From contig NZ_FNBT01000001.1 in NCBI RefSeq assembly GCF_900102425.1, forward strand, positions 186,001-250,000: a stretch of DNA of 64,000 nt. The letters run 5' to 3'. Positions 38,963 to 55,783 of the stretch are shown piece after piece (within the stretch, counting starts at the first letter, position 1; each line of letters opens with the position of its first letter). Under the pieces are notes generated by a model that was not told the origin of the DNA, searched no databases, and was given only the letters and a program-made list of their open reading frames with translations. Both the position numbers and the translations under genes were made by a program. Origin of the DNA: Blastococcus aurantiacus (GTDB lineage Bacteria > Actinomycetota > Actinomycetes > Mycobacteriales > Geodermatophilaceae).

Positions 38963-39402
38963 CCGGATCCGCCCCACGGGCGACCATGCCGGCTGGCCTG
39001 ATACGTGCCCCGGCTGCGTGGGGCGTGGTGTTCGGAGGCCTGCAGGCGGCGTCGCCGTTGGGCTTCCCCTGGCTGACCCCAGCCACCGTCTACGCGTTGG
39101 GGCTCACGCTCATCGCGGCTGTGTACGTGGGGTTCAGCGTCGCGGATGGGCGGCCGACGGTCATCGCCGTCGAGATCGGCGTCGCTTCAGCTTTCGTCGT
39201 CGTCGCCGCGGTCGCGGTGACCGGACCGGCCTGGCTGATCGTCGGCGGACTGGCAGGCCACGGCCTCAAGGACCTCTGGCAGCACCGGACCGGCTTCGTG
39301 GCCAACACCCGGTGGTGGCCGGTGTTCTGCGCCGTCGTCGACCTCGTCGCTGCGATTGCCATCGCGCTGATGACGTTGACCCACCGCGGCCTCCCACTGT
39401 GA
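38959..39402 (+). CDS. Small integral membrane protein
   Basis: 147 residues, four hydrophobic segments, starting from a GTG that overlaps the hydrolase stop. Distinct stretches are VYALGLTLIAAVYVGFSVAD, VVVAAVAVTGPAWLIVGGLA, GHGLKDLWQHRTGFVANTRW and VVDLVAAIAIALM. I do not recognise a named family. Notable because about 85 bp of its central coding region (39092-39176) recurs, decayed, at 41130-41213. Confidence 0.75.
   Translation: MTGSAPRATMPAGLIRAPAAWGVVFGGLQAASPLGFPWLTPATVYALGLTLIAAVYVGFSVADGRPTVIAVEIGVASAFVVVAAVAVTGPAWLIVGGLAGHGLKDLWQHRTGFVANTRWWPVFCAVVDLVAAIAIALMTLTHRGLPL
39092..39176 (+). repeat. Source copy of an ~85-bp repeat inside the small membrane protein gene
   Basis: The segment from TACGCGTTGGGGCTCACGCT to CATCGCCGTCGAGAT aligns with 41130-41213 with about ten differences. 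Here it is coding; there it is not. Confidence 0.75.
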
Positions 39403-41069: not shown

Positions 41070-41129
41070 GGGCGTGCGTTCGCGCCCCACAGGGGTCAGC
41101 GAAGTCGACGTCGCAGCCCTGCGCGCTCC

Positions 41130-41213
41130 ACGCGTTGAGGCTCACGCTCACCGCGGCCGTGCAGGTAGGACCCAGCGTCGCGGATGGGCGGCGGACGGGC
41201 ATCGCCGTCGAGA
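41130..41213 (+). repeat. Decayed copy of part of the small membrane protein gene
   Basis: Aligns with 39092-39176 (ACGCGTTG-GGCTCACGCTC, then CAGCGTCGCGGATGGGCGG and CATCGCCGTCGAGA). It has lost its reading frame and stops 11 bp before the -10 of the quinone oxidoreductase fragment at 41225, so two unrelated gene fragments are joined here. Confidence 0.7.
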
Positions 41214-41224
41214 CCGTCGTTCCG

Positions 41225-41387
41225 TAGCGTCCCCTGCATGCGCGCAGTCCAGATCACCGAGATCGGTGGCCCCGAGGTCCTGACCGTCGTCGACGTCCCG
41301 GAGCCCGAGGCGGGGCCTGGCCGGAGCCTGCACGACGTCTCCGCGGCCGGCATCAACTTCGCCGACACCCACCACCAGCTGTCGTGA
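41225..41387 (+). repeat. Quinone oxidoreductase 5' fragment, copy 1 (promoter plus 49 codons)
   Basis: TAGCGT at 41225 with a 7-nt gap, then ATG at 41238 and a 49-codon reading frame MRAVQITEIGGPEVLTVVDV ... INFADTHHQLS that ends in TGA at 41387. It matches the start of the intact gene at 52619 and copies at 43045 and 46894. The catalytic and cofactor domains are absent. Could be a dead gene end or a translated short peptide. Confidence 0.8.
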
Positions 41388-41611
41388 GACCTACCTGAGG
41401 TTGCTCGCCGCAGGGAGTGGTCCGGTCATGCGGGCCAGCGACTCCGGATAAGGCTCGACTATTGCCTCGACCTGGTCACGTCCCTCGCCGACCCGCCGGG
41501 ACTGAGCGCGGTGCGCGCCCCAGTCAGCCGCAGATCCAAGACGTCCTGACCGATCAGCCGCCTACCCACGATCATTGGTTGCCGTCCGCGTCCCCAGGAG
41601 AGTCGGCAACC

Positions 41612-41860
41612 ATGGAGGCCGCCGTCGGCCGTCACACCGCCGTCGACCGCCATCCGACCCTGCACGTCCGCGTTCCAGGTGACGACGACGTCGGTGCGCT
41701 CGACGAGCACCAGGTGATCAGCGCGTTCTGCGTGTTCCGGACCACCAACCGGCACACGTGCCTGGTCGTCGCCCACCTCACCACGCGGTCACTCATGGCC
41801 GGTGGAACGCTCATGGAGACAGGTGCGCCCGACCTGGCCACTCCCCGCCGGGTCACGTGA
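41612..41860 (+). CDS. Hypothetical protein, 82 aa
   Basis: ATG at 41612 has CCAGGAGAG upstream. The sequence (MEAAVGRHTAVDRHPTLHVR, then DEHQVISAFCVFRTTNRHTC, LVVAHLTTRSLMAGG) has a mixed composition but no motif I recognise. It lies just before the PRISE reductase gene on the same strand. May be a gene relic. The 224 bp before it (41388-41611) show nothing clear. Confidence 0.35.
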   Translation: MEAAVGRHTAVDRHPTLHVRVPGDDDVGALDEHQVISAFCVFRTTNRHTCLVVAHLTTRSLMAGGTLMETGAPDLATPRRVT

Positions 41861-41894
41861 GTTTCGTGCACGACTGACAGGAGACCCCAGACAG

Positions 41895-42974
41895 ATGACT
41901 GCACCAGCCCACCCGCGACAGGCCCTCGTCGTGGGTGCCACCGGGATCGTCGGCCAGAACCTGGCGGAACGGCTCACGGCCCAGGGCTGGGACGTGCACG
42001 GGCTCTCCCGCAGCGGGCGGGTCGCCGGCCCGGGGGTGCACCCCGTCAAGGCCGACCTGGCGGACGCCGCAGGACTAGCCGCGGCCGTGGCCGGGCTGTC
42101 ACCCGAGCTGGTCGCGATCACGGCATGGACCCGGCAGGCCACCGAGGCGGAGAACATCGCGGTGAACGGGGCCGCCGTCCGCAACGTGCTCGAGGCGCTG
42201 GAGCCGGCCCGATCTGAGCGGCACGTGGCCCTGATGACAGGGTTGAAGCACTACCTCGGCCCATTCGAGGCCTACGCGCAGGGCGAGATGCCCGACACGC
42301 CCTTCCACGAGGACGAGCCGCGGTTGGACGCTCCGAACTTCTACTACGCGCAGGAGGACGAGCTCTTCGCCGCCGCCGCCCGCGCGGGGTTCACCTGGAG
42401 CGTCCACCGGTCGCACACGGTGTTCGGCTTCGCCGTGGGCAACGCGATGAACATGGTGCTGACGCTGTCGGCGTACGCCGCGATCTGCAAGGAGCTCGGC
42501 AGGCCCTTCGTCTTTCCCGGGTCGAGCACCCAGTGGAACAGCGTGACCGACGTGACCGACGCCGATCTGCTGGCCGACCAGATCATCTGGGCCGCCGGCG
42601 CCGAGGCGGGCCACGACCAGGCGTTCAACACCGCCAACGGCGACGTCTTCCGCTGGCGCTGGCTGTGGCCGCAGATCGCGGCCCACTTCGGCGTGGAGTG
42701 GGAGGGGTACGAGGGACGGATCCGGCCGCTCACCGAGAGCATGGCGGGGGCCGAGGACGTCTGGGCCGGGATCGCCGCGGACCACGGCCTGGTCGAGCCC
42801 GACCTCGGCCGGATCGCCTCCTGGTGGCACACCGACAGTGACCTCGGGCGGGAGATCGAGGTGCTGACCGACATGAACAAGAGCCGCAAGGCCGGGTTCA
42901 CCCAGAGCCGGGACAGCCGCGACAGCTTCTTCCGCTACGTCGAGCGGTACCGCGCGGCGCGCATCATCCCCTGA
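41895..42974 (+). CDS. PRISE-type NAD(P)-dependent reductase/epimerase (SDR)
   Basis: 359 residues. Cofactor motif LVVGATGIVGQNLAERL at the N-terminus, then VALMTGLKHYLGPFEAY and FYYAQEDELFAAAARAGFTW with the Tyr of the catalytic pair. The TGLKHY block is typical of progesterone 5beta-reductase/iridoid synthase-like enzymes, which reduce alpha,beta-unsaturated carbonyls with NADPH. Complete and with normal codon use. It forms a one-gene cassette between quinone oxidoreductase fragments 1 and 2. Confidence 0.88.
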   Translation: MTAPAHPRQALVVGATGIVGQNLAERLTAQGWDVHGLSRSGRVAGPGVHPVKADLADAAGLAAAVAGLSPELVAITAWTRQATEAENIAVNGAAVRNVLEALEPARSERHVALMTGLKHYLGPFEAYAQGEMPDTPFHEDEPRLDAPNFYYAQEDELFAAAARAGFTWSVHRSHTVFGFAVGNAMNMVLTLSAYAAICKELGRPFVFPGSSTQWNSVTDVTDADLLADQIIWAAGAEAGHDQAFNTANGDVFRWRWLWPQIAAHFGVEWEGYEGRIRPLTESMAGAEDVWAGIAADHGLVEPDLGRIASWWHTDSDLGREIEVLTDMNKSRKAGFTQSRDSRDSFFRYVERYRAARIIP

Positions 42975-43044
42975 CGGCCGCCTGCCCGGAGGTCCATCTG
43001 CACCGCTGGGACTCCGGATCAACGGGAACCCCCACCCTCCGGCC

Positions 43045-43200
43045 ATGTGTGCCGTGCAGATCACCCGCTTCGGCGGCCCGAAGGTCATGAGTGTCGTCGA
43101 CGTCCGCGAGTCGGAGGCGGGTCCCGGCCAGCAGCTCTACGAGGGGAGCTCCGCAGGAGTCAACTTCGCCGACACCCACCACTGCCTGTCGGTCAACTGA
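43045..43200 (+). repeat. Quinone oxidoreductase 5' fragment, copy 2
   Basis: 51 codons, MCAVQITRFGGPKVMSVVDV ... VNFADTHHCLSVN, ended by TGA at 43200. It diverges more than the other copies (the -10 is lost: CACCCT) but keeps the same end point after HHxLS. Sits 70 bp after the PRISE gene. Confidence 0.8.
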
Positions 43201-43227
43201 CCTGACGGGAAGTGGACGGGCACAAGG

Positions 43228-43590
43228 TCAGGACGGAGGCGTCGGTTGGTCGGCCGAGGGCACGAGTCCGTGTTCGATCCGGTTCATGGTGTCCGCGAAG
43301 GCAACGGAGATGTCGATCCCGAGGCGCTCGGCGATGACGATCACCCACCACAACGACTCGGACAGCTTGTGTGCGAGCTGCGCATCGACGTCGCCGTCGA
43401 TCTCCCAGGTCCCCTCATGGGCCAGGATCAGTCGCCCGACGGTGCCGACGTCGTTGCCGAAGCCCAACATGAGCTCCTGGAGCGTCCACTCCTGGCCGTT
43501 GAGTCGTCGTTCGATGGCCTCGTAGAGGGCCCGAACCTCCATCGCCCGCCGGCGTGCGGACTCGAGATCGACCTGTCCCGGCTGGCTCAC
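43228..43590 (-). CDS. MazG-like nucleotide pyrophosphohydrolase family protein
   Basis: 120 residues, all-alpha. The stretch AHKLSESLWWVIVIAERLGI followed by VAFADTMNRIEHGL resembles the MazG/HisE-like metal-binding helices (known pattern E..D.LW....LA..LGI...). The preceding LMLGFGNDVGTVGRLILAHE is also compatible. It would hydrolyse a nucleotide to monophosphate plus PPi. GTG start overlaps the stop of the MmyB gene (GTGA at 43587-43590), so it is translationally coupled to that regulator. Confidence 0.7.
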   Translation of the reverse strand: MSQPGQVDLESARRRAMEVRALYEAIERRLNGQEWTLQELMLGFGNDVGTVGRLILAHEGTWEIDGDVDAQLAHKLSESLWWVIVIAERLGIDISVAFADTMNRIEHGLVPSADQPTPPS

Positions 43591-44486
43591 GTCGACTCCT
43601 GGGTGCGTGTGACCTGCGGAGAGGGCCCGACTGTCGGAAACCCGTAGCCCCCGCGCTCGGTCGCCTCGATCGTGCCGAGAAGGGCCAGAGCGTCCTCACT
43701 GGGACTGCCTGGCGCTGCGCTGGCCACGGTCAACTGCAGTCCCGGCGACTCGCGTACGTCGAAGGTCTGGTAGGACAGCTCGAGGTCACCGACGGCGGGG
43801 TGTCGGATGTGCATGTGCACGGTCGTGAGACCGGCGACCTCATGGGCGTCCCAGATGGCAGCGAACGCCGGGCTGCGGACGTAGAGGCGGCGCACCAGGG
43901 CGGCAACCTCGGGGTGGGGCGGCGAGAAGCCCGCGGAGAGGCGTATGCCGCGGACCGAGGCGTGAGCGACGTCGTCCCAGTGCACGAAGTACGTCGGCGC
44001 GGTCGGATCGAGGAACAGGTACTCCAGCACCTTGCCGTCGTGGTGGGCGGGAGCGATCAGCCCGGCCGCGATCTCGTTGGCCGCGATCACCCGGAAGGCG
44101 GGGTTCACCACGTAGGCCGCGGCCTTCGAGAACGAGTTCAGCAGTTGCCGCAGGTGTGGGCTCAGCTGCTCTTCGGTGGCTCGGGTCGTCGGGGCGAGCC
44201 GCGCCAGCCGGAAGGCATGGTCACGAGCGTCGGCGCCCAGTTGCAAGGCGCGAGCGACCGCCTCCATGAGCTGTGGCGACGGGGCGCGCTCGCGCCCTTG
44301 CTCCAGGCGGGCGTAGTAGTCGGAGCTCACGCCGGCCAACACGGCGACCTCTTCGCGCCGCAGGCCGGTCACGCGTCGGCTGCCGACGCTGCGCAGCCCG
44401 GCCGCCTCGGGTGTGATCCGGGCGCGCTGGGCTCGGAGGAAGTCGCCGAGCTCGTTGTCTCTCGCGCGGGTGTGCGCTCCGGACAT
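43587..44486 (-). CDS. MmyB/XRE family regulator
   Basis: 299 residues. N-terminal [63 protein letters not shown]-terminal MmyB ligand domain: VVNPAFRVIAANEIAAGL, LEYLFLDPTAPTYFVHWDDV, HIRHPAVGDLELSYQTFDV, VASAAPGSPSEDALALLG. ATG at 44486, two bases after the stop of the NTF2-like gene. Regulators of this type usually control adjacent oxidoreductase genes; here the partner genes are a MazG-like and an NTF2-like gene. Confidence 0.9.
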   Translation of the reverse strand: MSGAHTRARDNELGDFLRAQRARITPEAAGLRSVGSRRVTGLRREEVAVLAGVSSDYYARLEQGRERAPSPQLMEAVARALQLGADARDHAFRLARLAPTTRATEEQLSPHLRQLLNSFSKAAAYVVNPAFRVIAANEIAAGLIAPAHHDGKVLEYLFLDPTAPTYFVHWDDVAHASVRGIRLSAGFSPPHPEVAALVRRLYVRSPAFAAIWDAHEVAGLTTVHMHIRHPAVGDLELSYQTFDVRESPGLQLTVASAAPGSPSEDALALLGTIEATERGGYGFPTVGPSPQVTRTQEST

Positions 44487-44488
44487 GG

Positions 44489-44881
44489 TCAGCTCCGTTC
44501 GGTGTTCACCATCACGAACCGGCTGCACCGGCCGGATTCCTCGAAGGTCACGGTCCAGCGGTTGTCGAAGTCGCCGAGCTTCGCGTACCGCCCGATCCCG
44601 GTGATGACGACGTCCCACCCGTCGATCGCGGCGATGGACCACTCGAACTCCCATCCGCCACTCTGCCAGTCCCACCGGCTGCGCCAGCCCTCGATGATCG
44701 CCTCTCGACCGATCCAGTCGGTGTCGTAGGGCGATTCGTGGTACTCGGCGTCGTCGGTGAAGAGGGACTCGATGTCGGCGCGGGCGTTGCTCTTCCAGGC
44801 CTTCACGTAGTCCTCGACCCACCGGGTGACCGAGGCGGTCGTCGGGCCCGGGGGGACCGCATCGGCGGTGGCTGGCGTCAT
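44489..44881 (-). CDS. NTF2/SnoaL-like domain protein
   Basis: 130 residues of the NTF2-like cone fold: VEDYVKAWKSNARADIESLF, DDAEYHESPYDTDWIGREAI, WEFEWSIAAIDGWDVVITGI, DNRWTVTFEESGRCSRFVMV. Such small proteins are cyclases, isomerases or ligand binders. First gene of the three-gene operon with the MmyB regulator and MazG-like gene. Divergent from the hydrolase at 45037. Confidence 0.85.
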   Translation of the reverse strand: MTPATADAVPPGPTTASVTRWVEDYVKAWKSNARADIESLFTDDAEYHESPYDTDWIGREAIIEGWRSRWDWQSGGWEFEWSIAAIDGWDVVITGIGRYAKLGDFDNRWTVTFEESGRCSRFVMVNTERS

Positions 44882-44937
44882 GGGTCCGAGCCTGCCCGCG
44901 GGTGGAGACGCCAGACAGGGTGCATTGCTCCTAGGGT

Positions 44938-44964
44938 GTCGCGCCCTTCACCGGCGAGCGCGAC
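44938..44964. promoter_or_regulatory. Dyad GTCGCGC-N13-GCGCGAC
   Basis: A perfect 7-bp inverted repeat in the 155-bp divergent gap between the NTF2-like and hydrolase genes. Candidate operator for the MmyB regulator; GC-rich arms make chance occurrence fairly likely. Confidence 0.35.
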
Positions 44965-45036
44965 GCCGGGAGTCTCGGGAGCGGAGAACGTCTCCGATGG
45001 TCCCTCTCGCTCGCTCCCTGAAAGGTGCACCCAGCC

Positions 45037-45768
45037 ATGACCGATCCGGCCCCCACGCCCACCGTGGTCATCGTCCACGGCGCGTGGACCGACGCGAGCT
45101 CCTTCGCGGGAGTCCAGCGCCTCCTCTCCCAGGAGGGCTACACAGTCCTCGAGTTCGCCAATCCGCTCCGCTCGCTCGCCGGCGACGCGGACTACCTCGC
45201 CACGTTCCTCCAGACGCGTACGAGCGGCCCCGTCGTCCTGGTGGGCCACTCCTACGGCGGCGCCGTCATCGGCGCCGCGGGCCTCGCCGCGACCGACGTG
45301 CGCGCCCTGGTGTACGTCAACGCGTTCGTGCCGGCTCAGGGCGAGAGTCTGCTCGACCTGCTCAACAGCGTCGGACCTGTCGACCCCACTCAGCTCTTCG
45401 ACATGGCGCCCTACCCCGGCGCCCCTGAGGGCGACGTTGACCTGTACATCCAGCGCGGGCCGTTCGAGCCGGCGTTCGCGACCGGCCTCTCCGAAGAGGT
45501 CCAGACGGAGTTCTACGCCAAGCAGCGCCCCATCACGTTCGCAGCGGTGGGAGCGCCGGCGGCCCCGGGCCAGGCCTGGGAGCAGCTCCCCTCCTGGTAC
45601 GTAGCGGGACGCGTCGACGGGAGCATCCCGCTGGACCTGCAATTGCGGATGGCCGAGCGCGCAGGAGCCGCCGTCACCGAGGTCCAGGCCGGGCACCTGT
45701 CCATGGTCAGCCACCCCCGGGAGGTGGCGGATGTGATCAAGGCAGCCGCACGCGGCACTGACCAGTAG
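45037..45768 (+). CDS. Alpha/beta hydrolase
   Basis: 243 residues, cytoplasmic. VVIVHGAWTDASSFAGVQRL (oxyanion loop), VVLVGHSYGGAVIGAAGL (nucleophile elbow), and AGHLSMVSHPREVADVI with the catalytic histidine. This is the esterase/salicylate-esterase-like subgroup common in actinobacteria. ATG at 45037 with GAAAGGTG upstream. Divergent from the NTF2-like operon. Confidence 0.87.
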   Translation: MTDPAPTPTVVIVHGAWTDASSFAGVQRLLSQEGYTVLEFANPLRSLAGDADYLATFLQTRTSGPVVLVGHSYGGAVIGAAGLAATDVRALVYVNAFVPAQGESLLDLLNSVGPVDPTQLFDMAPYPGAPEGDVDLYIQRGPFEPAFATGLSEEVQTEFYAKQRPITFAAVGAPAAPGQAWEQLPSWYVAGRVDGSIPLDLQLRMAERAGAAVTEVQAGHLSMVSHPREVADVIKAAARGTDQ

Positions 45769-45965
45769 GCGCCAGCCAGGGACGCGTCCGCCCCGGCGCA
45801 CGAGATCGGTCGGCGCATCGAGTGCGCGGCCGGGGGCTGATGGGTTGCCTCAGGAACGCCGGGCCGATCCGGCCTCCCGACGGACGAACACGCATCTCTC
45901 AACTGCGCCCACACCACCGAGTCCGAACGCAACCGACCTCTTGCAGCAGTCCAGAAGGAGCACCC

Positions 45966-46553
45966 ATGTCCAGCACGCGGTCCACCGAGCACCTGCGCGC
46001 CACCGACGACCCCGAATACGTGCGAACGCCTCCGGTGACCTACGTCGCCGTGCTGGGTGACGGGTCACCCGGGACCGACGAGTTCTACCGCAAGAAAGCC
46101 CTGGTCGCCGACGTCGCCGACGAACTGACCCAGGCTGGGTCCGCGCCGGTCGTGGAGATCCAGTACTGGTACCCGGAGGGATCCACGCCCGTCGAGATCG
46201 CCGACTTCTACAGCGTGAACCCGGTTCCCTCCCTGCTCTACCGCGTCCTCTGCCAGATCCCCGCAGGTACCACCCAGACGGCCGTCGAGGACGCCCGGGC
46301 CCGCGCAGCAAGCACCGCGGACACGACGTCCGACGACGTGGCTGTGTTCTCCATGCCTGAGCAGGACGTCGTCCAGGTCATGCACCACGGCCCGTTCGCA
46401 GAGGAGCTCGCCACGCTCGGGCTGCTCGGCGAGTTCGCCCGGCAGCAGGGCCTGCGTCGCCGCGGGCCGCACCACGAGATCCACCTCGACGGCTTCACGC
46501 GCAGCACACCGCAGGACACCCTCCGCACGATCTTGCGAGACCCCGTCGGGTGA
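45966..46553 (+). CDS. GyrI-like small-molecule binding domain protein
   Basis: 195 residues. VRTPPVTYVAVLGDGSPG, a central LLYRVLCQIPAGTTQTAVED and FSMPEQDVVQVMHHGPFAEE followed by GLRRRGPHHEIHL are laid out like the GyrI-like/SOUL-type effector-binding fold. No HTH. AGAAGGAG stands before the ATG. Role unknown; in other bacteria these proteins bind or hydrolyse small toxic compounds. Confidence 0.75.
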   Translation: MSSTRSTEHLRATDDPEYVRTPPVTYVAVLGDGSPGTDEFYRKKALVADVADELTQAGSAPVVEIQYWYPEGSTPVEIADFYSVNPVPSLLYRVLCQIPAGTTQTAVEDARARAASTADTTSDDVAVFSMPEQDVVQVMHHGPFAEELATLGLLGEFARQQGLRRRGPHHEIHLDGFTRSTPQDTLRTILRDPVG

Positions 46554-46641
46554 CCAGCTGTCCCGAACACCGGCATGTGACGCGGCATGACAGGAGGACG
46601 CACCCTCGCTGGCACAGTGGATCGCGGACAGCGTCGTTGAC

Positions 46642-46767
46642 ATGGCGAGAGCGGGTGGCCCCCTTGGCGAATTCGTCCGCGCCCAACGTGCCCGCGTCAC
46701 GGCCGCGGAACGGCCGAGGGCGTCCTGGCTCCGGCGCAGGGGCGGGCCCTCTCCAACCAGACCATGA
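46642..46767 (+). pseudogene. MmyB/XRE regulator, N-terminal fragment
   Basis: ATG at 46642 starts MARAGGPLGEFVRAQRARVT, the first ~20 residues of an MmyB-type regulator (compare LGDFLRAQRARITPEAAGL at 43587), then loses similarity and stops at 46767. The HTH is cut off. It faces the same way as quinone oxidoreductase fragment 3, 127 bp downstream. The rest of 46768-46880 shows nothing recognisable. Confidence 0.55.
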
Positions 46768-46880
46768 TCACTGGGCGCAGTTCCTCGCGGGTCCGCCACC
46801 GCTGCCTGTTGAGGAGGTTCCCCACTCAGTGCTGCTGCGGCGAGCACCCCGCCCGTCACGTCCAGCGCGGGGAAAGGCCA

Positions 46881-47103
46881 TAGCCTCTCCGGCATGCGAG
46901 CCGTGCAGATCACCAAGTTAGGTGGTCCCGAGGTTCTGGATGTCGTCGACGTCCCCGAGCCGGAGGCGGGTCCCGGCCAGCAGCTCTACGACGTCTCCAC
47001 TGCGGGGATCAACTTCGCCGACACCCACCACCGGCTGTCTCGCCACGGACGTCACCCGCACGTGCAGGAGATGAGCATGGGAGTTGCGGCCGGCTTCGCT
47101 TGA
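46881..47103 (+). repeat. Quinone oxidoreductase 5' fragment, copy 3
   Basis: TAGCCT at 46881, 7 nt, then ATG at 46894 and MRAVQITKLGGPEVLDVVDV ... INFADTHHRLS, identical in layout to the intact gene at 52606-52619. Similarity ends at codon 49 (about 47040); the frame continues for 21 unrelated codons to TGA at 47103. The following 168 bp (47104-47271) hold nothing clear. Confidence 0.8.
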
Positions 47104-47271
47104 TTCCGCGCAGGCACCAGAGGGCTGGACGCCGGCCGGGCCGGATGCCCCCATCGGGCGCCCAGCACGGCACTGTCGAACCACCGGCGCGCGGGGAGAC
47201 GGAGACTCCCGACACCCGTCTTTGGAGGCGGTGATCGACGAAGGCGGATCTCGTCGGGCGCAACGCCGGCG

Positions 47272-47910
47272 TCAGGCGGATGAACCGGTGAGGAGGACCG
47301 CGCGGAGCCGCACCTGACGGCGAACCAGCAGCCAGGCGGCCATGACCAACGTCAGTACGACGCCGGCGACCGTGAGCAGATCGTCGATCAGTGGCAGAGC
47401 AGCGCCGGCGACAGCGCCCGCGGCGACCAGTGCACTGGACCACAGGAGGGACGCGGGGGCGGTGCCGCGGAGCATGATCGCGAGCGGAACGCCGGCGGAC
47501 GCGGCCAGGCGCGGGGCCAGCGTGCGCGCGCCGACGACGAACTGGGCCGTCGCCGCCGCCCGCACCGGCCGGCGTCGGATCGTCTCGCGCCACGGCGTGA
47601 TGAGCCGGTCGACCAGACGGATGACCTGCGCCGGCGCGCGACGGCGGACTGCGTCACCTGCCGGCGAGGTGCCGCCCGACCTGCGCCTGACCACCTGGTG
47701 CCCGAGTGCCGCACCGAGCACGGTGCCGGTGGCGGCACTGAGCGCAGCCAGTGGCAGCGACACCACGCCGATGCCGCCGAGCACGCCCAGCCCGAGGACC
47801 AGTGATCCGGCCGGCAGGACGATGCCGATCAGCAGACCTGCCTCGAGCACCAGCACGAGCGCGACCGCCACCAACGACGCTGGTGCACTCATCTGGAGCA
47901 GGGCGTCCAC
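47272..47910 (-). CDS. DedA-like membrane protein
   Basis: About 212 residues with five or six hydrophobic segments. The DedA signature is recognisable in VLVLEAGLLIGIVLPAGSLV and in VVGARTLAPRLAASAGVPLA (family: a re-entrant helix with Arg and Pro, F.GR..P..R...G). DedA proteins are lipid-carrier transporters or affect membrane potential. Start is uncertain: GTG 47910 was chosen because GAGGGAG is well placed; GTG 47922 and ATG 47889 are also in frame. Confidence 0.75.
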   Translation of the reverse strand: MDALLQMSAPASLVAVALVLVLEAGLLIGIVLPAGSLVLGLGVLGGIGVVSLPLAALSAATGTVLGAALGHQVVRRRSGGTSPAGDAVRRRAPAQVIRLVDRLITPWRETIRRRPVRAAATAQFVVGARTLAPRLAASAGVPLAIMLRGTAPASLLWSSALVAAGAVAGAALPLIDDLLTVAGVVLTLVMAAWLLVRRQVRLRAVLLTGSSA

Positions 47911-48002
47911 AGGAACGAGCACTCCCTCGAGGTGGTCGAGCTGGACATGGACGCGGCGAGACCGGACCCGGTCGGCCGTCACCGCTGGGGAGACCGGCCT
48001 CG

Positions 48003-49007
48003 TCAGGCCGGACGAGGACTTTCGCGGAGCAGGCCGAGAGCGGGCTCGTCGGTTCCGCCGTCCGCACGACCATCCGGGAATGACACGTCGGTCAGCTGCT
48101 CCGACAGCTGCCACATGCGCTGCGCGTCCCCCGTGCGCCGCAGCCGCCCGTAGGGCTTCTGCTCGGCCGGCGGTCCGCTGATGTGCCCGAACCTGCGCGG
48201 CCCGTAGAAGCGGCCACCGGCGGCCTCCGACGAGGTCGCGCCGAACAAGGCGGGGAGGGCGGCCGTCTCGGGGGTGCCCGCGATGCCCATCGCGGACAAC
48301 CTCCTGATCATGCGGATCTCGCGGGACTCCTCGGAGCGGCCGATGCCCGGCTGCGCGGCGAGCAGGTTCGTCGGGGCCACGCCGGGGTGCGAGAGATTGC
48401 TCGTGATCCCCCAGCCACGTGCCGTGCTGCGCCGGTCCAGCTCGAGGCCGAACAGCCCGAACGCGATCTTGGAGTGGCTGTAGGCGCGCATCGGGTGGTA
48501 GGCGCTCTCCCACTGCGGGTCGTCCCAGTTGATCGCGTACCGGTTGGCCGCGATGCTCACCTGCGAGGTGACGCGCGCGCGGCCGGCGCGCAGCAGCGGC
48601 AGCAACTGCGCCACGAGCGCGAAGTGGCCGAGGTGGTTGGTCCCGAACTGCAGCTCGTGCCCGTCGACCGTCGTCCGCCGCTCCGGCGGGGTCATGACGC
48701 CCGCGTTGTTGATCAGGACGTCGATCGGCCGTCCCTCCTCGAGGAGCGCACTGCTGAAGGCGGCGACCGACTCGAGCGACGCCAGGTCGAGCGGGTGCAG
48801 GGTGATCGTCGCCCCGGGTACCCGCGCGCGGATCTCCGCGACCGCGGCCTGGCCCTTGCCACGGTTGCGGACCGGGAGGACGAGGTCGGCGCCCGCCGCA
48901 GCCAGCCGGCGGGCGATGACCAGGCCGATGCCGTCGCTGCCTCCGGTGAGCACCGCTCGCTTGCCGGACAGGTCGGGGACGAGCATGTCGATCGTTCTGC
49001 GGGCCAT
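48003..49007 (-). CDS. SDR family oxidoreductase (retinol dehydrogenase-like)
   Basis: 334 residues. Cofactor loop [57 protein letters not shown] and the catalytic YSHSK. The layout is that of retinol/protochlorophyllide-reductase-like SDRs, NADPH dependent. Divergent from the MmyB regulator at 49211 with a perfect 12-bp dyad between them; such regulator/SDR pairs are common in actinobacteria. Confidence 0.9.
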
Positions 49008-49087
49008 CAGCGGGCTCCTGTCTGGTCGATGCGCTGGGTGCGCCGTGACACCACAGTCCCCCGCGCTGCCGTCGGGAGGCAGGACCT

Positions 49088-49126
49088 GTCGATCCCCCCC
49101 AATGCCGACCGCAAGGGGGGATCGAC
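49088..49126. promoter_or_regulatory. Predicted MmyB-regulator operator
   Basis: GTCGATCCCCCC (49088-49099) and GGGGGGATCGAC (49115-49126) are perfect inverted copies with a 15-bp spacer, in the 203-bp divergent region between SDR and MmyB-type regulator genes. The length and lack of mismatches make it unlikely to be chance. Confidence 0.75.
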
Positions 49127-49210
49127 GGACCGTGGTTGTGCCGGTGCCGCGCCGGTAGACATGGCCCCGCCGTCCCGACCGGGCCGGCGCACTACGCACC
49201 AGGAGGACAT

Positions 49211-50098
49211 GTGGCCATCGATCGAGCCGGCCTGGCGGAATTCCTCCGGCACCGCCGGGAGTCGCTGCAGCCCGAGGACGTCGGCATGCCCCGCGGGCAG
49301 CGGCGCCGGACCACCGGCCTCCGACGGGAGGAGGTCGCTGCCCTCTGCCACATGTCGACCGACTACTACGCGCGCCTCGAGCAGGAGCGCGGCCCCCAGC
49401 CCTCGCAGCAGATGATCGCCTCGATCGCCCAGGGGCTGCACCTGTCCCTCGACGAGCGCGATCACCTGCACCGGCTGGCGGGGCAGCAGCCGCCTCCCCG
49501 CGGTGCGGACAGCGAGCACGTCAGCCCCGGCCTGCTTCGGATCCTCGACCGCCTCACCGACACCCCCGCCGAGATCGTCACCGAGCTGGGCGAGACCCTG
49601 CGCCAGACGCCCGTCGGGATCGCCCTCACCGGCGACACGACCCGGTTCACCGGGCCGGCGCGCAGCAAGGGGTACCGGTGGTTCACCGATCCGTCCTCGC
49701 GGGCGCTGCATGCCGCCGAGGACCACGCCTTCCTCTCCCGCATGTACGCCTCCGGGCTGCGCGCCATCCTGGCGATGCGAGGGCCCGGTTCGCGCGCGGC
49801 TCACCTGACCGACCTCCTGCTGGAGCAGAGCGAGGAGTTCTGCGACTTGTGGGAGGTCCACGAGGTGGGCATCCATCCTCAGGAGGTCAAGCGCTACCAG
49901 CACCCGGAGGTCGGGCGGCTCGAGCTCAACTGCCAGACGCTCGTGGACCCGCACCAGGCGCACCGGCTGATGGTCTACACCGCCGTTCCGGGCACCGAGA
50001 GCTACGACAAGCTCCAGATGCTCACCGTGATCGGGGCCCAGTCCCTGGCCGTCCCCGAGGCCACCACCGCCGGCATGCAGCCCGAGGACCTGCGATGA
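49211..50098 (+). CDS. MmyB/XRE family regulator
   Basis: 295 residues. HTH domain: [59 protein letters not shown]. MmyB domain: [59 protein letters not shown]. The GTG at 49211 directly follows AGGAGGACAT. Overlaps the MMPL transporter by ATGA (50095-50098), so one operon of regulator and exporter, divergent from an SDR. It probably controls both through the dyad at 49088. Confidence 0.9.
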
Positions 50099-52281
50099 GC
50101 CGCTTCCTGCATCGCCTCGGCAGATCGACGGCCGCCCATCCCTGGCGCGCGCTCGCGGCGTGGGTGCTCATCGCCGTCGTGGCCGTCACCACCGCCGGTG
50201 CGTTCGGTGGCACGCCCCAGGACAATTTCGACGTCGAGGGCGCCCCTGCGCTCGCCGGCATCGAGTCGCTGCGTGAGAACTTCCCCGGCTCGGGCGCGGC
50301 CGGCAGTTCCGCCCAGGTCGTCGTCCACGACCCCGACGGCGGCGAGGTGGGCGACGCGCAGCTCTCCGATCTGATCGCTGGGCTCGCCGACGTCGAGCAC
50401 GTGACGTCGATCGCGCCGCCGCGCTGGTCCGACGACCGCGACACCGCCCTGCTGCACGTCGTCTTCGACGTGCCGGTCACCCACCCCGACCTCGCGAGCG
50501 GCCTCGGTGTCGAGGCGCTCCAGGACGCGGTGAGCACGGCCGACGACGGTCTGCAGGTCGAGCTCGGCGGCGAGCTGCCCAACACGTCCGCCGAAGCGGT
50601 GCAGGGCACCGGCGAGATCGCCGGCGTCCTCCTGGCGCTCGTGCTGATGGTGTTCGTCCTGGGCACTGTCGTGGCCGCCGGCCTCCCCCTGCTGGTGGCC
50701 CTGGCCGGTCTCGGGATCTCGGTCGCGGGCGTCACGCTCCTGGCCGCGGTGACGGACGTCAGCACCACCGCCCCGACCGTCGCGATGATGGTGGGCCTCG
50801 GCGTCGGTATCGACTACGCGCTGCTGCTGATCACCCGCCACCTCGAGTACGTGCGCGCCGGCGTCCCGATTCCCGAGGCCGCGGGGAGGGCGACCGCCAC
50901 CGCGGGCCGCTCGGTGGTGTTCGCCGCAGCGATCGTGCTGGTCTCGCTGATGGGGCTCCCGCTCGCTGGTCTGCCCACCTACTCCTCCTTCGGGTTCGCG
51001 ACGGGTATCGCCGTGGTGTCCGTCGCGGCGGCCACCCTCACGCTCGTGCCGGCCTTCTGCGGCCTCCTCGGTCGCCGACTGCTGCCGCGGAGAGAACGCA
51101 GAGGTCTGCCGCCCCGACGTTCCCGACCGGTCCGGGAGCCGTTGTCCGCGCGCTGGGCGGCGGCGGTCACCCGCCGACCGGTGCCCTGGGCCCTGGCCGC
51201 GCTGCTCCTGATGGCGACGCTGGCCCTGCCGGCCCTGGACATGCGCACGTTCCCGCGGGACGTGTCGAACAACGCCAACGACAGCACGACCCGGCAGGCC
51301 TTCGACATCGTCACCGCCGAGTTCGGCGCCGGGGCGAACGGGCCGATCACCGTGGTGGTCGATCGCGCGGCCGTCGGCGACGCCGGTGTCGCCGCGGCCG
51401 CCGCACGGCTGAGCGACGTGCACGACGTCGTCGCGGTCACCGGCCCGGTCGTCTCGCCCGACGGACAGGTCGCCGTGCTGACGGCGGAACCGGCCTTCGG
51501 CCCGGCCGACGAGCGCACGCCCGAGCTGCTCGAACGGTTGCGCGCCCAGGTGGACGGCGCCGAGATCACCGGCAACACCGCCATGCTCTCCGACATCTCC
51601 GTGATGCTGTCGGAAAGGATGTGGCTGGTCGTCGGCTTCGTCGTCGCGGTGTCGATGCTGCTGCTCGCCGCGATGTTCCGCTCGGCCGTCGTGCCGCTGA
51701 AGGCGGCCGCCCTCAACCTGCTGTCGATCGGGGCTGCCTACGGGGTCGTCACCGCGGTCTTCCAGTGGGGCTGGGCCACCGACCTGGTGGGCCTGGACCA
51801 CGCGATGCCCGTGTCGAGCTGGCTGCCCATCCTGATGTTCGCCATCCTCTTCGGCCTCTCGATGGACTACGAGGTGTTCCTGCTCTCGCGGATTCGCGAG
51901 CACTGGCTGCGGAGCGGGGACGCCCGCGCCAGCGTCGTGCGGGGCGTCGCCGGGACGGGACGCGTCATCTCGACCGCCGCGGCCGTCATGGTGGTCGTCT
52001 TTCTCGGCTTCGCCACGGAGTCCGACCTCGTCGTCCGGCAGCTGGGTCTCGGCATGGCCGTCGCGGTGCTCTTGGACGCCACCGTCGTCCGGATGATCCT
52101 CGTGCCCGCCACGATGACCCTCCTGGGACGAGGCAGCTGGTGGCTGCCCGCCTGGCTCGACCGACTGCTGCCCACGATCGAGGCGGAGGTCACCGACGAA
52201 ATTCGGGGCGACGGGCCGGGGTCCAGGGCGTCTGCCGCCGGTCGACGTCGCGACGAGGAGCTGGAGGGCGTGGTCGGCTGA
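50095..52281 (+). CDS. MMPL family RND-type transporter
   Basis: 728 residues with two RND repeats: a helix, a periplasmic domain, then five helices, twice. Landmarks are MMVGLGVGIDYALLLITRHL and ILFGLSMDYEVFLLSRIREH, the GxGxDY and GLSMDYE motifs of the proton relay helices. Such MMPL proteins export lipids or drugs across the inner membrane. Charged C-terminal tail. Translationally coupled to the MmyB-type regulator. Confidence 0.92.
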   Translation: MSRFLHRLGRSTAAHPWRALAAWVLIAVVAVTTAGAFGGTPQDNFDVEGAPALAGIESLRENFPGSGAAGSSAQVVVHDPDGGEVGDAQLSDLIAGLADVEHVTSIAPPRWSDDRDTALLHVVFDVPVTHPDLASGLGVEALQDAVSTADDGLQVELGGELPNTSAEAVQGTGEIAGVLLALVLMVFVLGTVVAAGLPLLVALAGLGISVAGVTLLAAVTDVSTTAPTVAMMVGLGVGIDYALLLITRHLEYVRAGVPIPEAAGRATATAGRSVVFAAAIVLVSLMGLPLAGLPTYSSFGFATGIAVVSVAAATLTLVPAFCGLLGRRLLPRRERRGLPPRRSRPVREPLSARWAAAVTRRPVPWALAALLLMATLALPALDMRTFPRDVSNNANDSTTRQAFDIVTAEFGAGANGPITVVVDRAAVGDAGVAAAAARLSDVHDVVAVTGPVVSPDGQVAVLTAEPAFGPADERTPELLERLRAQVDGAEITGNTAMLSDISVMLSERMWLVVGFVVAVSMLLLAAMFRSAVVPLKAAALNLLSIGAAYGVVTAVFQWGWATDLVGLDHAMPVSSWLPILMFAILFGLSMDYEVFLLSRIREHWLRSGDARASVVRGVAGTGRVISTAAAVMVVVFLGFATESDLVVRQLGLGMAVAVLLDATVVRMILVPATMTLLGRGSWWLPAWLDRLLPTIEAEVTDEIRGDGPGSRASAAGRRRDEELEGVVG

Positions 52282-52365
52282 GCCCACCGCCGCCACGGCC
52301 GGCGCCGATCTCGACCTCCGCGGGACCGGCGCCGGTCTCGGCCCTCAACTCGGCCGACGAGCGCC

Positions 52366-52429
52366 GGCCGAACCCTGCACGACGTCTCAGCCGCCGGAGT
52401 CACCTACGCCGACACCCACCTCCGGCAGG
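52366..52429 (+). repeat. Quinone oxidoreductase fragment, copy 4 (3' part only)
   Basis: GGCCGAACCCTGCACGACGT and then a run encoding VSAAGVTYADTHLRQ match codons ~29-49 of the other copies. The promoter and first ~28 codons are missing. It ends at the same place as copies 1-3 and lies just upstream of the intact gene. Confidence 0.65.
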
Positions 52430-52605
52430 TGGCCGCCGTCGTAACGGATGCGTTCGCGCTCCACTGATCCAACTCGCCCAACAGGCGGCCTTCGTGGCAG
52501 TAAGCGGCCAAGGCTAGTTGGTCCTCGTCGTGGACGGCGTGGAGCAGGTACTGACCGTTGGCGGCGGGGGCGGGCTGACCGTCCGCCGCCCGAAGGGGCA
52601 GGCCC

Positions 52606-52611
52606 TAGCCT
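52606..52611 (+). promoter_or_regulatory. Leaderless -10 element of the quinone oxidoreductase gene
   Basis: TAGCCT, then GACCTGC, then ATG. The same element and spacing stand before fragments 1 (TAGCGT) and 3 (TAGCCT), which argues that it is a functional and conserved promoter. Confidence 0.65.
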
Positions 52612-52618
52612 GACCTGC

Positions 52619-53590
52619 ATGCGTGCTGTGCAGATCACCCGCTTCGGCGGCCCGGAAGTCCTCGACGTCGTCGACCTTCCCGACCCCACTCCAGGACCAG
52701 GTCAGACGCTGTACGAGGTGAGTGCCGCAGGAGTCAACTTCGCCGACACCCACCAGATCGAGAACTCCTACCTGGCCGCCCAGCAGCTGCCGCTCATCCC
52801 TGGCGCGGAGTTCGTCGGCACCCCGGTCGGCGGCGGCCAGCGGGTGGTCGGCCTGCTCGACGGCGGCGGCTACGCCGAGCGGGTGGCCGCGAACGACCGG
52901 CTCACCTGGGCCGTGCCGGACGGCGTCACCGACGAGCAGGCGCTGTCGCTGGTCCTCCAGGGGACCACCGCCTGGCACCTGCTGCGCACCTGCGCGCACC
53001 TGGCCGAGGGCGAGTCCGTCGTCGTCATCGCCGGTGCCGGTGGCGTCGGCTCGCTGGCCGTGCAGCTGGCCCGCCGCTGGGGCGCCGGCCGCGTCATCGC
53101 CACCGCGTCCAGCCTCGAGAAGCGCTCACTCACCGAGGAGCTCGGCGCCCACGCTACCGTCGACCCGGCGCTGGCGGACGACGACCCGAAGCAGTTCGCC
53201 GCCGCCCTCCGCGAGGCCAACGACGGCAAACCCGTCGACATCGTGCTCGAGATGACCGGCGGCAACGTCTTCTCCGGTTCGCTCTCGGCGCTGGCCCCCT
53301 TCGGCCGGCTGGTCACCTACGGCATGGCCGCCCGCCAGGAGACGCCGTCGGTGCCCCCGGGCGCGCTCATGCAGAAGAGCCGCGCGGTCATCGGGTTCTG
53401 GCTGGCGCACTGCATGGCCCGTCCCGACATGCTCGACGCCGCCATGACCGACCTGCTCGCCATGACCGCGGACGGCTCGCTCAAGCCCGTCGCAGGTGGG
53501 CGCTACCCGCTGTCCAACGTGCGCGACGCACACCAGGACCTGCTCGCCCGCCGCACCACCGGCAAGCTCGTCCTCGACCCCACTCGCTGA
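52619..53590 (+). CDS. NADPH:quinone oxidoreductase (zinc-less MDR family), intact
   Basis: 323 residues of the quinone reductase branch of the medium-chain dehydrogenases. N-terminal GroES-like domain (MRAVQITRFGGPEVLDVVDL, GVNFADTHQIENSYL, LIPGAEFVGTPVGGGQRVVG), Rossmann motif VIAGAGGVGSLAVQLARRWG and the C-terminal LSNVRDAHQDLLARRTTGKL. No structural zinc cysteines. It reduces quinones with NADPH. Convergent with the ArsR gene. The first 49 codons have three diverged partner copies and one partial copy in the preceding 11 kb. Confidence 0.93.
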   Translation: MRAVQITRFGGPEVLDVVDLPDPTPGPGQTLYEVSAAGVNFADTHQIENSYLAAQQLPLIPGAEFVGTPVGGGQRVVGLLDGGGYAERVAANDRLTWAVPDGVTDEQALSLVLQGTTAWHLLRTCAHLAEGESVVVIAGAGGVGSLAVQLARRWGAGRVIATASSLEKRSLTEELGAHATVDPALADDDPKQFAAALREANDGKPVDIVLEMTGGNVFSGSLSALAPFGRLVTYGMAARQETPSVPPGALMQKSRAVIGFWLAHCMARPDMLDAAMTDLLAMTADGSLKPVAGGRYPLSNVRDAHQDLLARRTTGKLVLDPTR

Positions 53591-53603: not shown

Positions 53604-53984
53604 TCAGCCCTTCGCGCGGGCGGCGTCGGCGAGGGCGACCGCGTCCTCGGCGCCGTCGAGCGCGTCGAGCAGCGCCTGACCCTGCCGCAGGTTGGCCGTC
53701 AGCATCCGGCGAGCCACCGCCAGCAGCTCGGCCGTCTGCGGGTCGCACAGCGAGCAGATGACGTTGTTCCGCACTCGCCGGCTCCCGACGATGCCCGCAC
53801 GGCGCAGCACGCTGACCTGCTGCGACAGGTGCGAGAGCTCCAGCCCCGTGCCCTCGGCCAGCTCGCCGATCGTGCGCTCCCCCTCGGCCAGGAGCTCGAG
53901 CACCCGGATGCGCGCCGGGTGCGCCAGAGCCTTGAAGAGGTCCGCCTTGGCCTCGGCCAGGGGGCGGCCGGGTGTGAACGGCAT
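53604..53984 (-). CDS. ArsR/SmtB family regulator
   Basis: 126 residues with a winged helix: ADLFKALAHPARIRVLELLA, RTIGELAEGTGLELSHLSQQ, VSVLRRAGIVGSRRVRNNVI. The only cysteine is in CSLCDPQ late in the wing, so metal sensing by the classic ArsR site is not obvious. Divergent from the phosphatase gene at 54071 with a 41-bp dyad between them. Convergent with the quinone oxidoreductase gene, with only 13 bp between stops. Confidence 0.88.
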   Translation of the reverse strand: MPFTPGRPLAEAKADLFKALAHPARIRVLELLAEGERTIGELAEGTGLELSHLSQQVSVLRRAGIVGSRRVRNNVICSLCDPQTAELLAVARRMLTANLRQGQALLDALDGAEDAVALADAARAKG

Positions 53985-54009
53985 ACCGCCAGCATACGAA
54001 CCAGCGGCC

Positions 54010-54050
54010 TTCTGTAGTGCTTGATAAGTTCGTCAAGTCACTCGACAGAA
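54010..54050. promoter_or_regulatory. Predicted ArsR operator, extended imperfect dyad
   Basis: TTCTGT ... ACAGAA at the ends, AGTG-CTTGA and TCAAG-T-CACT inside, with an 8-bp centre (TAAGTTCG). Total 41 bp with one bulged base. It begins 26 bp upstream of the ArsR start and 20 bp upstream of the phosphatase start. Confidence 0.65.
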
Positions 54051-54070
54051 GTTCCCGGTGAAGAGGTGCG

Positions 54071-55783
54071 ATGTCCCGCTGGTGGCGGACGGACGGCGTG
54101 GACGACGGCGTGGACGACGCCGACGCCCAGACCCTGGAGAGCATGCCGATCGGTCTGCTCGAGCTGGACACCGACTGGACGGTCCGCTACATCAACGCGG
54201 CCGGTGAGCAGATGGTCGGGCACGTCCGGGCCGACCTGCTGGGCCGGTCCTACTGGGATGCGTTCCCGGCCAGCACGGGCAACGACTTCGGCCGCGCGTA
54301 CCGCGAGGCCGTCGCCACCCGCCGGCCGCAGACCTTCGAGGCCTTCTACCCCGAGCCGCTGAACCAGTGGTACGAGGTTCACGCAGTGCCCGCCCTGCAC
54401 GGCCTCTGGGTGTACTTCACGGAGGTGACCGCACGCCGCCAGGCCGTCGAGCGGCTGGCGCTGCTCGCCCGGGTCAGCGAGGACCTCGTCGGCACCCTGA
54501 ACGCCCCTGCGGCGGTGGGGCGGATCCCCCGGGTGATCGTGCCCGCGCTCGCCAACTGGGCGACGGTCGCCGTGCTGGCCGAGGACGGCACGCTGCTGGA
54601 CGCCGGGGCCTGGCACGTCGACCCGGCAAAGGTGCCGCTGGTGCGCCGGTTCGCCGCCGCGGCGCAGGCGTCCTTCCCCACGACGTCGCCGAGCCTGCGC
54701 GCGGTGACCACCGGCACCCCGGTGACCGTGCCCGCCACCGGGCTGACCGGCCGCGCGCTCGGGCTGGTCGCCACCGGTGAGGCGCGCCGACTCCTCCGGG
54801 TGCTCGACCCCGGCACCATGACCGTGCTGCCGATCCGAGGGCCGGACCGGGTGCTCGGCGTCCTGACCCTGGTGCACGACCGGCACCGGGCGGTCGACCC
54901 CGCTGATCTGGCCACCGCCACCGAGGTCGCGCAGCGAGCGGGTCTGGCCCTGGACAACGCGCGGCTGTACGAGCAGCAGCGGCGCCTCGCCGAGGAGCTG
55001 CAGCGCAGCATGCTGACCGCGGCGCCCCAGCCCGACCACGCGCAGATCGTGGTGCGCTACCTGCCCGCCGGCGAGGCCGCCCGCGTGGGCGGCGACTGGT
55101 ACGACGCCTTCGTCCAGCCCGACGGCGCGACCGTCCTGGTCATCGGCGACGTCGTCGGCCACGACACCTCCGCTGCGGCGTCGATGGGCCAGCTGCGCAG
55201 CATGCTCCGCGGCATCGCCGTCACCGGTGACGTGGGCCCGGCCGGGCTGCTCGCCCAGCTCGACGCGGCGATGACCCAGCTGCAGCTGCACACCTACGCG
55301 ACCGCGGCCCTGGCCCGCTTCGAGCAGAGCCCCGAGGACCTGGAGCGGGGCATCACCCGGATGCGCTTTGCGAACGCCGGCCACCCGCCGCCGCTGATCA
55401 TCCACCCGGACGGCACCATCGCCGAGCTGGCCAGCTGGCGCGGCGACCTCATGCTCGGGGTCGACTCCGACACGCGGCGCAGCGAGTCGGTGGTCAGCCT
55501 GGACCGCCGGACCACCGTGCTGCTCTACACCGACGGACTGATCGAGCGCCGGGACTCCGTGCTCGACGACGGCATGGACCGCCTACGGGCAGCGGCGGCC
55601 GAGTTCGCCGGGCTCCCGCTCGACGAGCTGTGCGACCGGCTCATCGAGCGGCTGGTGGACTCCCGCCCGGAGGACGACGTCGCCCTGGTGGCCATCCGCC
55701 TGCACCGCCAGGACCGCCCCCGCCCCGACGTCGCCGGGCCGCGGGACGTTCCCCCGACGGTGCCGCCCGACCCTGCGGGCTAG
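54071..55783 (+). CDS. PAS-GAF-SpoIIE (PP2C) serine phosphatase
   Basis: 570 residues. PAS ~22-120 (DTDWTVRYINAAGEQMVGHV), GAF ~130-290, PP2C ~320-545 with VGGDWYDAFVQPDGATVLVI, DVVGHDTSAAASMGQLRSML, LYTDGLIERRDSVLDDGMDR and EDDVALVAIRL. A close paralog of the protein at 18111 but with one PAS instead of two. ATG at 54071 with GAAGAGG upstream. The end overlaps the VWA gene on the other strand by 4 bp. Confidence 0.92.
   Translation: MSRWWRTDGVDDGVDDADAQTLESMPIGLLELDTDWTVRYINAAGEQMVGHVRADLLGRSYWDAFPASTGNDFGRAYREAVATRRPQTFEAFYPEPLNQWYEVHAVPALHGLWVYFTEVTARRQAVERLALLARVSEDLVGTLNAPAAVGRIPRVIVPALANWATVAVLAEDGTLLDAGAWHVDPAKVPLVRRFAAAAQASFPTTSPSLRAVTTGTPVTVPATGLTGRALGLVATGEARRLLRVLDPGTMTVLPIRGPDRVLGVLTLVHDRHRAVDPADLATATEVAQRAGLALDNARLYEQQRRLAEELQRSMLTAAPQPDHAQIVVRYLPAGEAARVGGDWYDAFVQPDGATVLVIGDVVGHDTSAAASMGQLRSMLRGIAVTGDVGPAGLLAQLDAAMTQLQLHTYATAALARFEQSPEDLERGITRMRFANAGHPPPLIIHPDGTIAELASWRGDLMLGVDSDTRRSESVVSLDRRTTVLLYTDGLIERRDSVLDDGMDRLRAAAAEFAGLPLDELCDRLIERLVDSRPEDDVALVAIRLHRQDRPRPDVAGPRDVPPTVPPDPAG

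Follow-up and report, generated by a model that had tools for sequence, protein, structure and literature searches.

A 64,000-nucleotide stretch of the Blastococcus aurantiacus genome (contig NZ_FNBT01000001.1, positions 186,001 to 250,000; hereafter the window) carries on its + strand four fragments of a quinone oxidoreductase (QOR) gene followed by the intact gene, with cassettes of accessory genes lying between the copies. The question raised by this locus is how the 5′ end of one gene came to be repeated among such cassettes, each time breaking off at the same place. Comparison across the family Geodermatophilaceae identified a real, family-wide cassette-array system with its docking site inside a core gene. 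The array was probably built by serial site-specific integration at a single point of the QOR gene, between the second and third bases of codon 46 (...GCCGACACCCACCA|G). The components of the locus are listed below, where the core is the shared sequence at this end point and the arm is the sequence that follows it in the fragments.

41222–41374, + strand: fragment 1, with −10 element TAGCGT at 41225–41230, ATG at 41238, QOR codons 1–46 and core GCCGACACCCACCA at 41361–41374
41375–41397, + strand: element arm of fragment 1 (CCAGCTGTCGTGAGACCTACCTG), an attL-like right half (junction model, E = 2.5e-20)
41375–43181, + strand: cassette A, with a PRISE-like reductase/epimerase gene (open reading frame (ORF) 41802–42974); its right end is fragment 2
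43028–43181, + strand: fragment 2, with ATG at 43045, no −10 element, core at 43168–43181 and arm at 43182–43205
43182–47030, + strand: cassette B, with a 120-amino-acid gene (−), an MmyB-type regulator (−), an alpha/beta hydrolase (+) and a GyrI-like protein (+)
46876–47030, + strand: fragment 3, with −10 element TAGCCT at 46881–46886, ATG at 46894, core at 47017–47030 and arm at 47031–47053
47031–52421, + strand: cassette C, with a short-chain dehydrogenase/reductase (−, in ORF 48003–49199), an MmyB-type regulator (+, 49136–50098), an MMPL protein (+, in ORF 49678–52281) and others; its right end is the partial fragment 4
52363–52421, + strand: fragment 4, truncated at the 5′ end, with core at 52408–52421 (one mismatch) and a degenerate arm
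52422–52618, + strand: short interval ahead of the full gene, terminating in −10 element TAGCCT at 52606–52611
52619–53590, + strand: intact QOR gene, the final copy, encoding a zinc-binding dehydrogenase/quinone oxidoreductase of 323 amino acids; chimeric at the core
52739–52766, + strand: proposed attachment site in Xer geometry, TTCGCCGACAC-CCACCA-GATCGAGAACT; the shared sequence stops at 52755

Gene fragments and their common end point

A genome-wide search with positions 41225–41387 recovered all five copies that a preliminary description of this DNA had placed at 41238, 43045, 46894, 52366 and 52619, all on the + strand. The matches cover 41225–41387, 43044–43191, 46881–47039, 52366–52426 (partial) and 52606–52755, with E-values from 1e-80 to 8e-12, and the single genomic match outside the locus, of 76 bp at 75% identity, lies on the same contig (C9:25721–25796). 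Identity to copy 1 was 74% for 43044–43191, 82% for 46881–47039, 84% for 52366–52426 and 73% for 52606–52755, which is near the 15–25% divergence estimated earlier. The −10 hexamers TAGCGT and TAGCCT ascribed to copies 1 and 3 are indeed present, as is one ahead of the full gene, and copy 2 has none. An arm of approximately 25 bp after the core is common to copies 1–3 and absent from the full gene. The preliminary description had the similarity of the copies end within a few bases of codon 49; a shared end point was borne out, but measured against the full gene it falls at the second base of codon 46 (CACCA). The QOR protein of the window matches the Pfam families ADH_zinc_N and ADH_N, and its best NCBIfam match is quinone_pig3, under the cut-off of that model.

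The comparison set consisted of 39 oriented regions from 38 genomes, in which copies were placed by profile searches. Two or more copies with the core were found in 28 of the 39 regions and one in the remaining 11, giving 118 copies, namely 33 intact genes and 85 fragments. One and the same base of codon 46 is reached by every one of the 85 fragments. The intact genes, which were chosen by the continuation CACCAG[AG][TC]CGAG[GA]A, proceed after CACCA with G[AG][TC]CGAG, whereas a C follows in 75 of the 85 fragments and CTGTC at +4 to +8 is matched at four or more of its five bases in 60. The arm occurs in two flavours, CTGTCgnCAACTGACCTGA and CTGTCGTGAGAnnTACCTGAG, and beyond about +22 from the core the fragment sequence is random (41 fragments). 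At its left end the repeat begins with the −10 hexamer, some 7 nt ahead of the start codon, with no conservation further upstream.

A BLAST search with the 3′ part of the QOR gene hit exactly the same 33 regions, once each and always at the gene copy; no fragment carries it. The six regions lacking the 3′ part are G015b, L041, G027, G103, G026 and G091, for the last of which a gene-type start is listed outside the collected region. All 323 codons could be read in 32 of the 33 intact genes (G086 has no stop within the stretch used), and the intact gene is the last copy in every one of the 33 regions that have one. The preliminary description had named full-length genes in relatives at the positions of copies 1–3, with differing truncation points, as the mark of decayed paralogs; with the 3′ part present at no fragment, this check did not refute an insertion hot spot. 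Intervals between cores (n = 79) have a median of 3.4 kb and range from 0.3 to 39 kb. At L065:12741–13256 (G021), two QOR starts lie only about 360 bp apart, the first being a decayed fragment, so that the cassette between them is nearly empty.

The array is not confined to the window. DNA of copy 3 matches 23/23 genomes of the window's genus and 106/112 of the family, counts that include intact genes, and matches reaching into the arm were found in at least 44 of the 112 family genomes among the matches listed (E to ~1e-11; rows judged by eye). The junction model behind the latter count was built from sequence only, using 56 junctions, those of the 85 fragments that pass a filter of core plus CTGTC; intact genes in its list match only about positions 1–45. 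The exact junction pattern was present in five stretches of named records, four from Modestobacter and one from Goekera deserti, both Geodermatophilaceae. Among 397 genomes of the order searched with three mismatches allowed, only scattered matches occurred outside the family, by eye like those of a reversed-pattern control, with no cluster among the places listed. Since this end point and its arm were met again in other genera, chance is excluded, and the array is confirmed as real and not local. One exact junction pattern had no match in IMG/VR and fragment 3 had none in phages or plasmids, so a phage or plasmid origin visible in the sequence was rejected.

The renewed 5′ end and the cassettes

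Pairwise comparison of the 23 full genes of the window's genus revealed a correlation of only 0.03 between the identity of the first 117 bp and that of the rest, whereas four equal bins of the remainder correlate at 0.38–0.59 with the others. Across all 253 pairs, third-position identity was 0.634 in the 5′ part versus 0.76–0.82 in five later bins. Where the 3′ parts were more than 92% identical (29 pairs), identity was 31% in the upstream DNA and 0.77–0.89 in the 5′ part, core excluded. By these comparisons, codons 1–46 of QOR evolve independently of the remainder of the gene, and the low 5′ correlation together with the diverged upstream DNA shows that the promoter and codons 1–46 have been replaced repeatedly. 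The element would supply both; a −10 hexamer is present in 32 of the 33 full genes, and all 33 can be read in frame from the start codon to the core.

The alignments further show that different species, and different genera, have entire cassettes in common. The most widespread of them encodes, at L060:12439–14175, a DUF429 domain fused to a RelA/SpoT-like synthetase domain. It occurs in 12 regions of the set, its proteins being 90–96% identical to that of G017 or G016. Between G007 and G020 its DNA is 93% identical, and this similarity extends into the fragment and ends at the core in both genomes, although one of them has an internal fragment at this right end and the other has the intact gene; in G005, G001 and G016 it is likewise the last cassette. 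On its left side, G007 and G101 share 0.90–0.95 identity for 240 bp rightwards of the core, and 0.62–0.90 and then ~0.5 leftwards of it. Cassette B of the window has a similar counterpart in a second genus (G024), with 94% identity over 2.7 kb and 88% over 1.1 kb. G084 and G086 have one 5.9-kb cassette in common, lying between two cores and 96% identical (right half ~99%); it holds the same rank counted from the gene with different neighbours, and the QOR 3′ parts of the two genomes are 0.93–0.96 identical over 800 bp. Where pairs have the right end of a cassette in common, the middle of the 5′ fragment is also raised, at 0.79 against a baseline of 0.67–0.70 (24 of 26 pairs usable). Pairs with a common left end showed no raised fragment similarity, a weak comparison in which 2 of 4 pairs were usable.

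A crude gene caller predicted 374 array genes in the 39 regions, 225 of which have no relative in the set; 192 lie on the − strand and 182 on the + strand. Of two sets of cassette proteins scanned with Pfam, one of 116 proteins contained 111 families and one of 145 proteins contained 150. PADLOC gave matches to 23 models, mostly RmrA, in the one protein set scanned, and RmrA/RmrT and MADS-type defence proteins are among the cassette proteins of set A3 (L096–L113) by these models. In the sets scanned, the arrays contain diverse metabolic and regulatory families and a few defence proteins. The GC content of cassettes A and B (41375–47030) is 0.70 and 0.69, compared with 0.73–0.74 in the flanks.

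Building of the array and its possible recombinase

Under serial integration, the mobile unit would extend from the arm (CCnGCTGTC..) to the next CACCA, with a leaderless promoter, start codon and codons 1–46 at its right end. An incoming unit would cut the resident gene at the core. The former promoter and 5′ end would remain in place as a truncated fragment, now followed by the arm, and the 3′ part of the gene would be fused to the promoter and 5′ end that arrive with the unit, so that the enzyme would still be encoded. Repeated integration would then produce the order [fragment-cassette]n-intact gene. The structure of the array, its common end point, the chimeric gene and the sharing of whole cassettes have been demonstrated by sequence comparison; we infer in addition that units pass through a circular form and that a recombinase works on them in trans, as well as the direction in which the array grows. 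One of the two explanations offered in the preliminary description, a hot spot of insertion where the 5′ end of the gene is made anew at every event, gains support from the common crossover point, the second arm, the intact gene in last place, the chimeric gene and the cassettes shared as units.

The other, a dispersed repeat derived from a truncated, promoter-bearing gene, need not be invoked, as the fragments behave like remnants. Of the 74 fragments with a near-complete 5′ part, 39 keep a −10-like hexamer and 56 an open frame from start to core, far less than in the full genes. From full genes to fragments, amino-acid differences rise from 0.143 to 0.211 and third-position differences from 0.244 to 0.257 (53 ungapped fragments). 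The fragments are therefore remnants, and although a good number retain frame and hexamer, it is highly improbable that promoter plus 46 codons form a functional unit, be it for a short peptide or as promoter of the cassette genes. Cassette genes on both strands argue against fragments as general promoters, and this role was rejected on that ground and on the loss of the −10 element. Fragments do decay, and 13 matches end at differing points before the core, as independent decay of tandem paralogs would have it. Such an origin can nevertheless be practically dismissed, and was rejected, given one end point in 85 fragments, a non-coding arm shared by most, the gene last in 33/33 regions and a 3′ part that is never found at a fragment. 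Homologous (Campbell-type) recombination, in which circles bearing the QOR 5′ end would cross over anywhere within the ~150-bp repeat with no site-specific recombinase, would yield the identical layout of fragment, cassette and intact gene, and some pairs do switch ahead of the core. We consider it improbable, however, because it leaves unexplained 5′ pieces that end at one base, mostly with the same arm, in several genera; the window copies, 16–27% diverged from copy 1, would also be poor substrates, and cassette identity often continues through the fragment up to the core.

Candidate recombinases were sought with PF00589 (E ≤ 10 in 12 genomes, ≤ 0.001 in 15 more), PF00239 (the same 27) and PF07508 (23 genomes), coordinates being compared by eye. 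No match above cut-off fell inside the known array extents, in part among the matches listed (E to ~1e-7), and a large serine recombinase within the arrays was rejected on the PF07508 and PF00239 results. One PF00239 match under the cut-off (E = 0.06) lies inside the G028 array, and the array contig of G027 carries a serine recombinase 45 kb from the nearest copy. A dedicated integrase, of the tyrosine or the serine type, might instead have carried out integration at the same site; it would belong to helper elements (phage, or integrative and conjugative element) and lie elsewhere in the genome or have since been lost, with the cassettes as its satellites. Additional tyrosine recombinases do occur in most array genomes examined (PF00589 has 6 matches in G000 and 12 in G007, for example), and 5′-end-replacing elements with integrases of their own are known, namely dusA islands and SXT in prfC (PMC8409611). 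Set against this are the arrays themselves, the missing IMG/VR, phage and plasmid matches, and two genomes, G024 (7 cores) and G091, whose two PF00589 genes each are best assigned as XerD-like plus XerC-like, three of the four scoring below equivalog cut-offs, with no other match at the limits used. For PF00239, G024 has no match above cut-off and G091 one partial match away from the array. A helper integrase is thus conceivable but somewhat doubtful.

Genes for both XerC and XerD are present in G000, G024 and G091, and dif occurs in one copy in each of 23/23 genomes, at 0.37–0.62 Mb from the array site in the one-contig genomes G006, G008 and G021. In an Xer layout of 11-6-11, with the shared hexamer CCACCA set to end where homology ends, the G000 site agrees with its own dif at 13 of 22 box positions (XerC side 8/11, XerD side 5/11), a resemblance that had been noticed before it was tested. 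A score of 13 or more is reached at 21 of 127,944 window positions and by 0.035% of shuffled boxes; the site is the best in the gene, where the next best score, 12, occurs twice.

Several observations weigh against serial integration at the core, or against the part given to Xer in it. In this sequence analysis no recombination was observed and no recombinase identified. A clear arm is missing in 25 of the 85 fragments, the 13 + strand matches that end short of the core read as later deletions, and two matches (G013 region 6083–6212 and G091 region 9381–9461) are on the opposite strand, versus 131 on the same strand. In G020 and G009 the DUF429 cassette is different over its left ~300 bp, cassette B has no sharp left edge (0.75–0.82 before the core, 0.80–0.82 just after) and pairs with G001, G019 and G020 lose linkage ahead of the core. 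As all fragments are alike up to the core, any two of them should align as far as that point and no further; the only informative evidence is their linkage with cassette DNA, on a basis of 24 and 2 pairs. At positions invariant in full genes, the core of the fragments showed no special upkeep (2.7% versus 3.5% change, p = 0.39), and with this control an impression of a specially conserved fragment core was dropped. The full gene has no excess of synonymous constraint at the core, its top windows being elsewhere. Fragments farther from the gene were not more decayed than nearer ones (p = 0.15, 14 arrays), a lack of polarity that would allow units to enter at internal fragments too. Regarding Xer, the XerD box alone is weak (5/11, p = 0.09), the left box is coding sequence (FADTH) and the comparison with dif followed the noticed resemblance. 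For the latter two reasons, host XerC/XerD acting in trans, although the likeliest recombinase, are put forward only tentatively as an unproven candidate.

Known counterparts and neighbouring sequence

Integrons likewise order cassettes of accessory genes at one chromosomal locus, in units bounded by a recurrent site of one orientation, and here 2 of 133 matches lie on the other strand. They differ in that no IntI or other PF00589 tyrosine recombinase was found in the array extents of the 27 genomes, among the matches listed. Moreover, cassette genes here lie on both strands, the intervals are of widely varying length, and units are received inside a core enzyme gene, which obtains a new 5′ end. 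Integrons are rare in Actinobacteria. It is possible, if far from assured, that the Geodermatophilaceae possess a family-wide, integrase-free counterpart in which XerC/XerD capture cassettes at a dif-like site in the QOR coding sequence, each capture giving the gene a new promoter. Tycheposons, which target tRNA genes, acquire cargo serially at one site with restoration of the target. The present target is a protein gene, it is the 5′ and not the 3′ end that is restored, and no integrase is seen.

Replacement of a 5′ end is in itself already known: according to the accessible part of PMC8409611, SXT in prfC and dusA-specific islands integrate in the 5′ coding part and bring a new promoter and N-terminus, as proposed here. 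The dusA elements described there carry their own integrase and excision factor, whereas here many short cassettes pile up in one array and no integrase of their own was detected beside the attachment site in the array extents of the 27 genomes. Elements that exploit Xer carry no recombinase of their own, which is what was found here within the limits of the search. TLCphi and the gonococcal genetic island (GGI) depend on host Xer, and their site agrees with dif in the XerC box and the central region but departs from it in the XerD box (PMC5357621), a half-match of the kind proposed for QOR. By the same account they use dif itself, unlike the QOR site, which is in coding sequence far from dif and for which a role of Xer is a proposal. 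The Acinetobacter dif modules, short modules of adaptive genes with Xer-type flanks, present several per replicon on plasmids and also on chromosomes (PMC6449649, as far as its available text goes), are similar in being short and bounded by such sites. Their flanks, in that text, are 28-bp XerC/D and XerD/C sites, in place of direct repeats within a ~150-bp gene fragment at one chromosomal locus. No report of the integrase-free array form was found in the literature searched, subscription papers being mostly outside it.

If the proposal holds, this would be an actinobacterial system that captures cassettes without a dedicated integrase by docking them in a working enzyme gene, and QOR expression would be rewritten at every acquisition. 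The system offers a test of whether host recombinases can build arrays of accessory genes away from dif, and core plus arm provide a sequence tag for tracking cassette traffic across genomes.

Two features of the surrounding DNA may be added. Downstream, an ArsR-type regulator and a PAS/GAF/SpoIIE protein (53604–55783) sit between QOR and the DUF58-MoxR genes, at a position where most relatives have a BatA-like VWA gene, which was not found among the hits of the window genome. Upstream, the 94 bp abutting the −10 element of fragment 1 (41127–41220) are an 85% copy of 39089–39182, which has no further copy in the 39 regions and whose source ORF (38959–39402), 2 kb upstream, resembles a small membrane protein.

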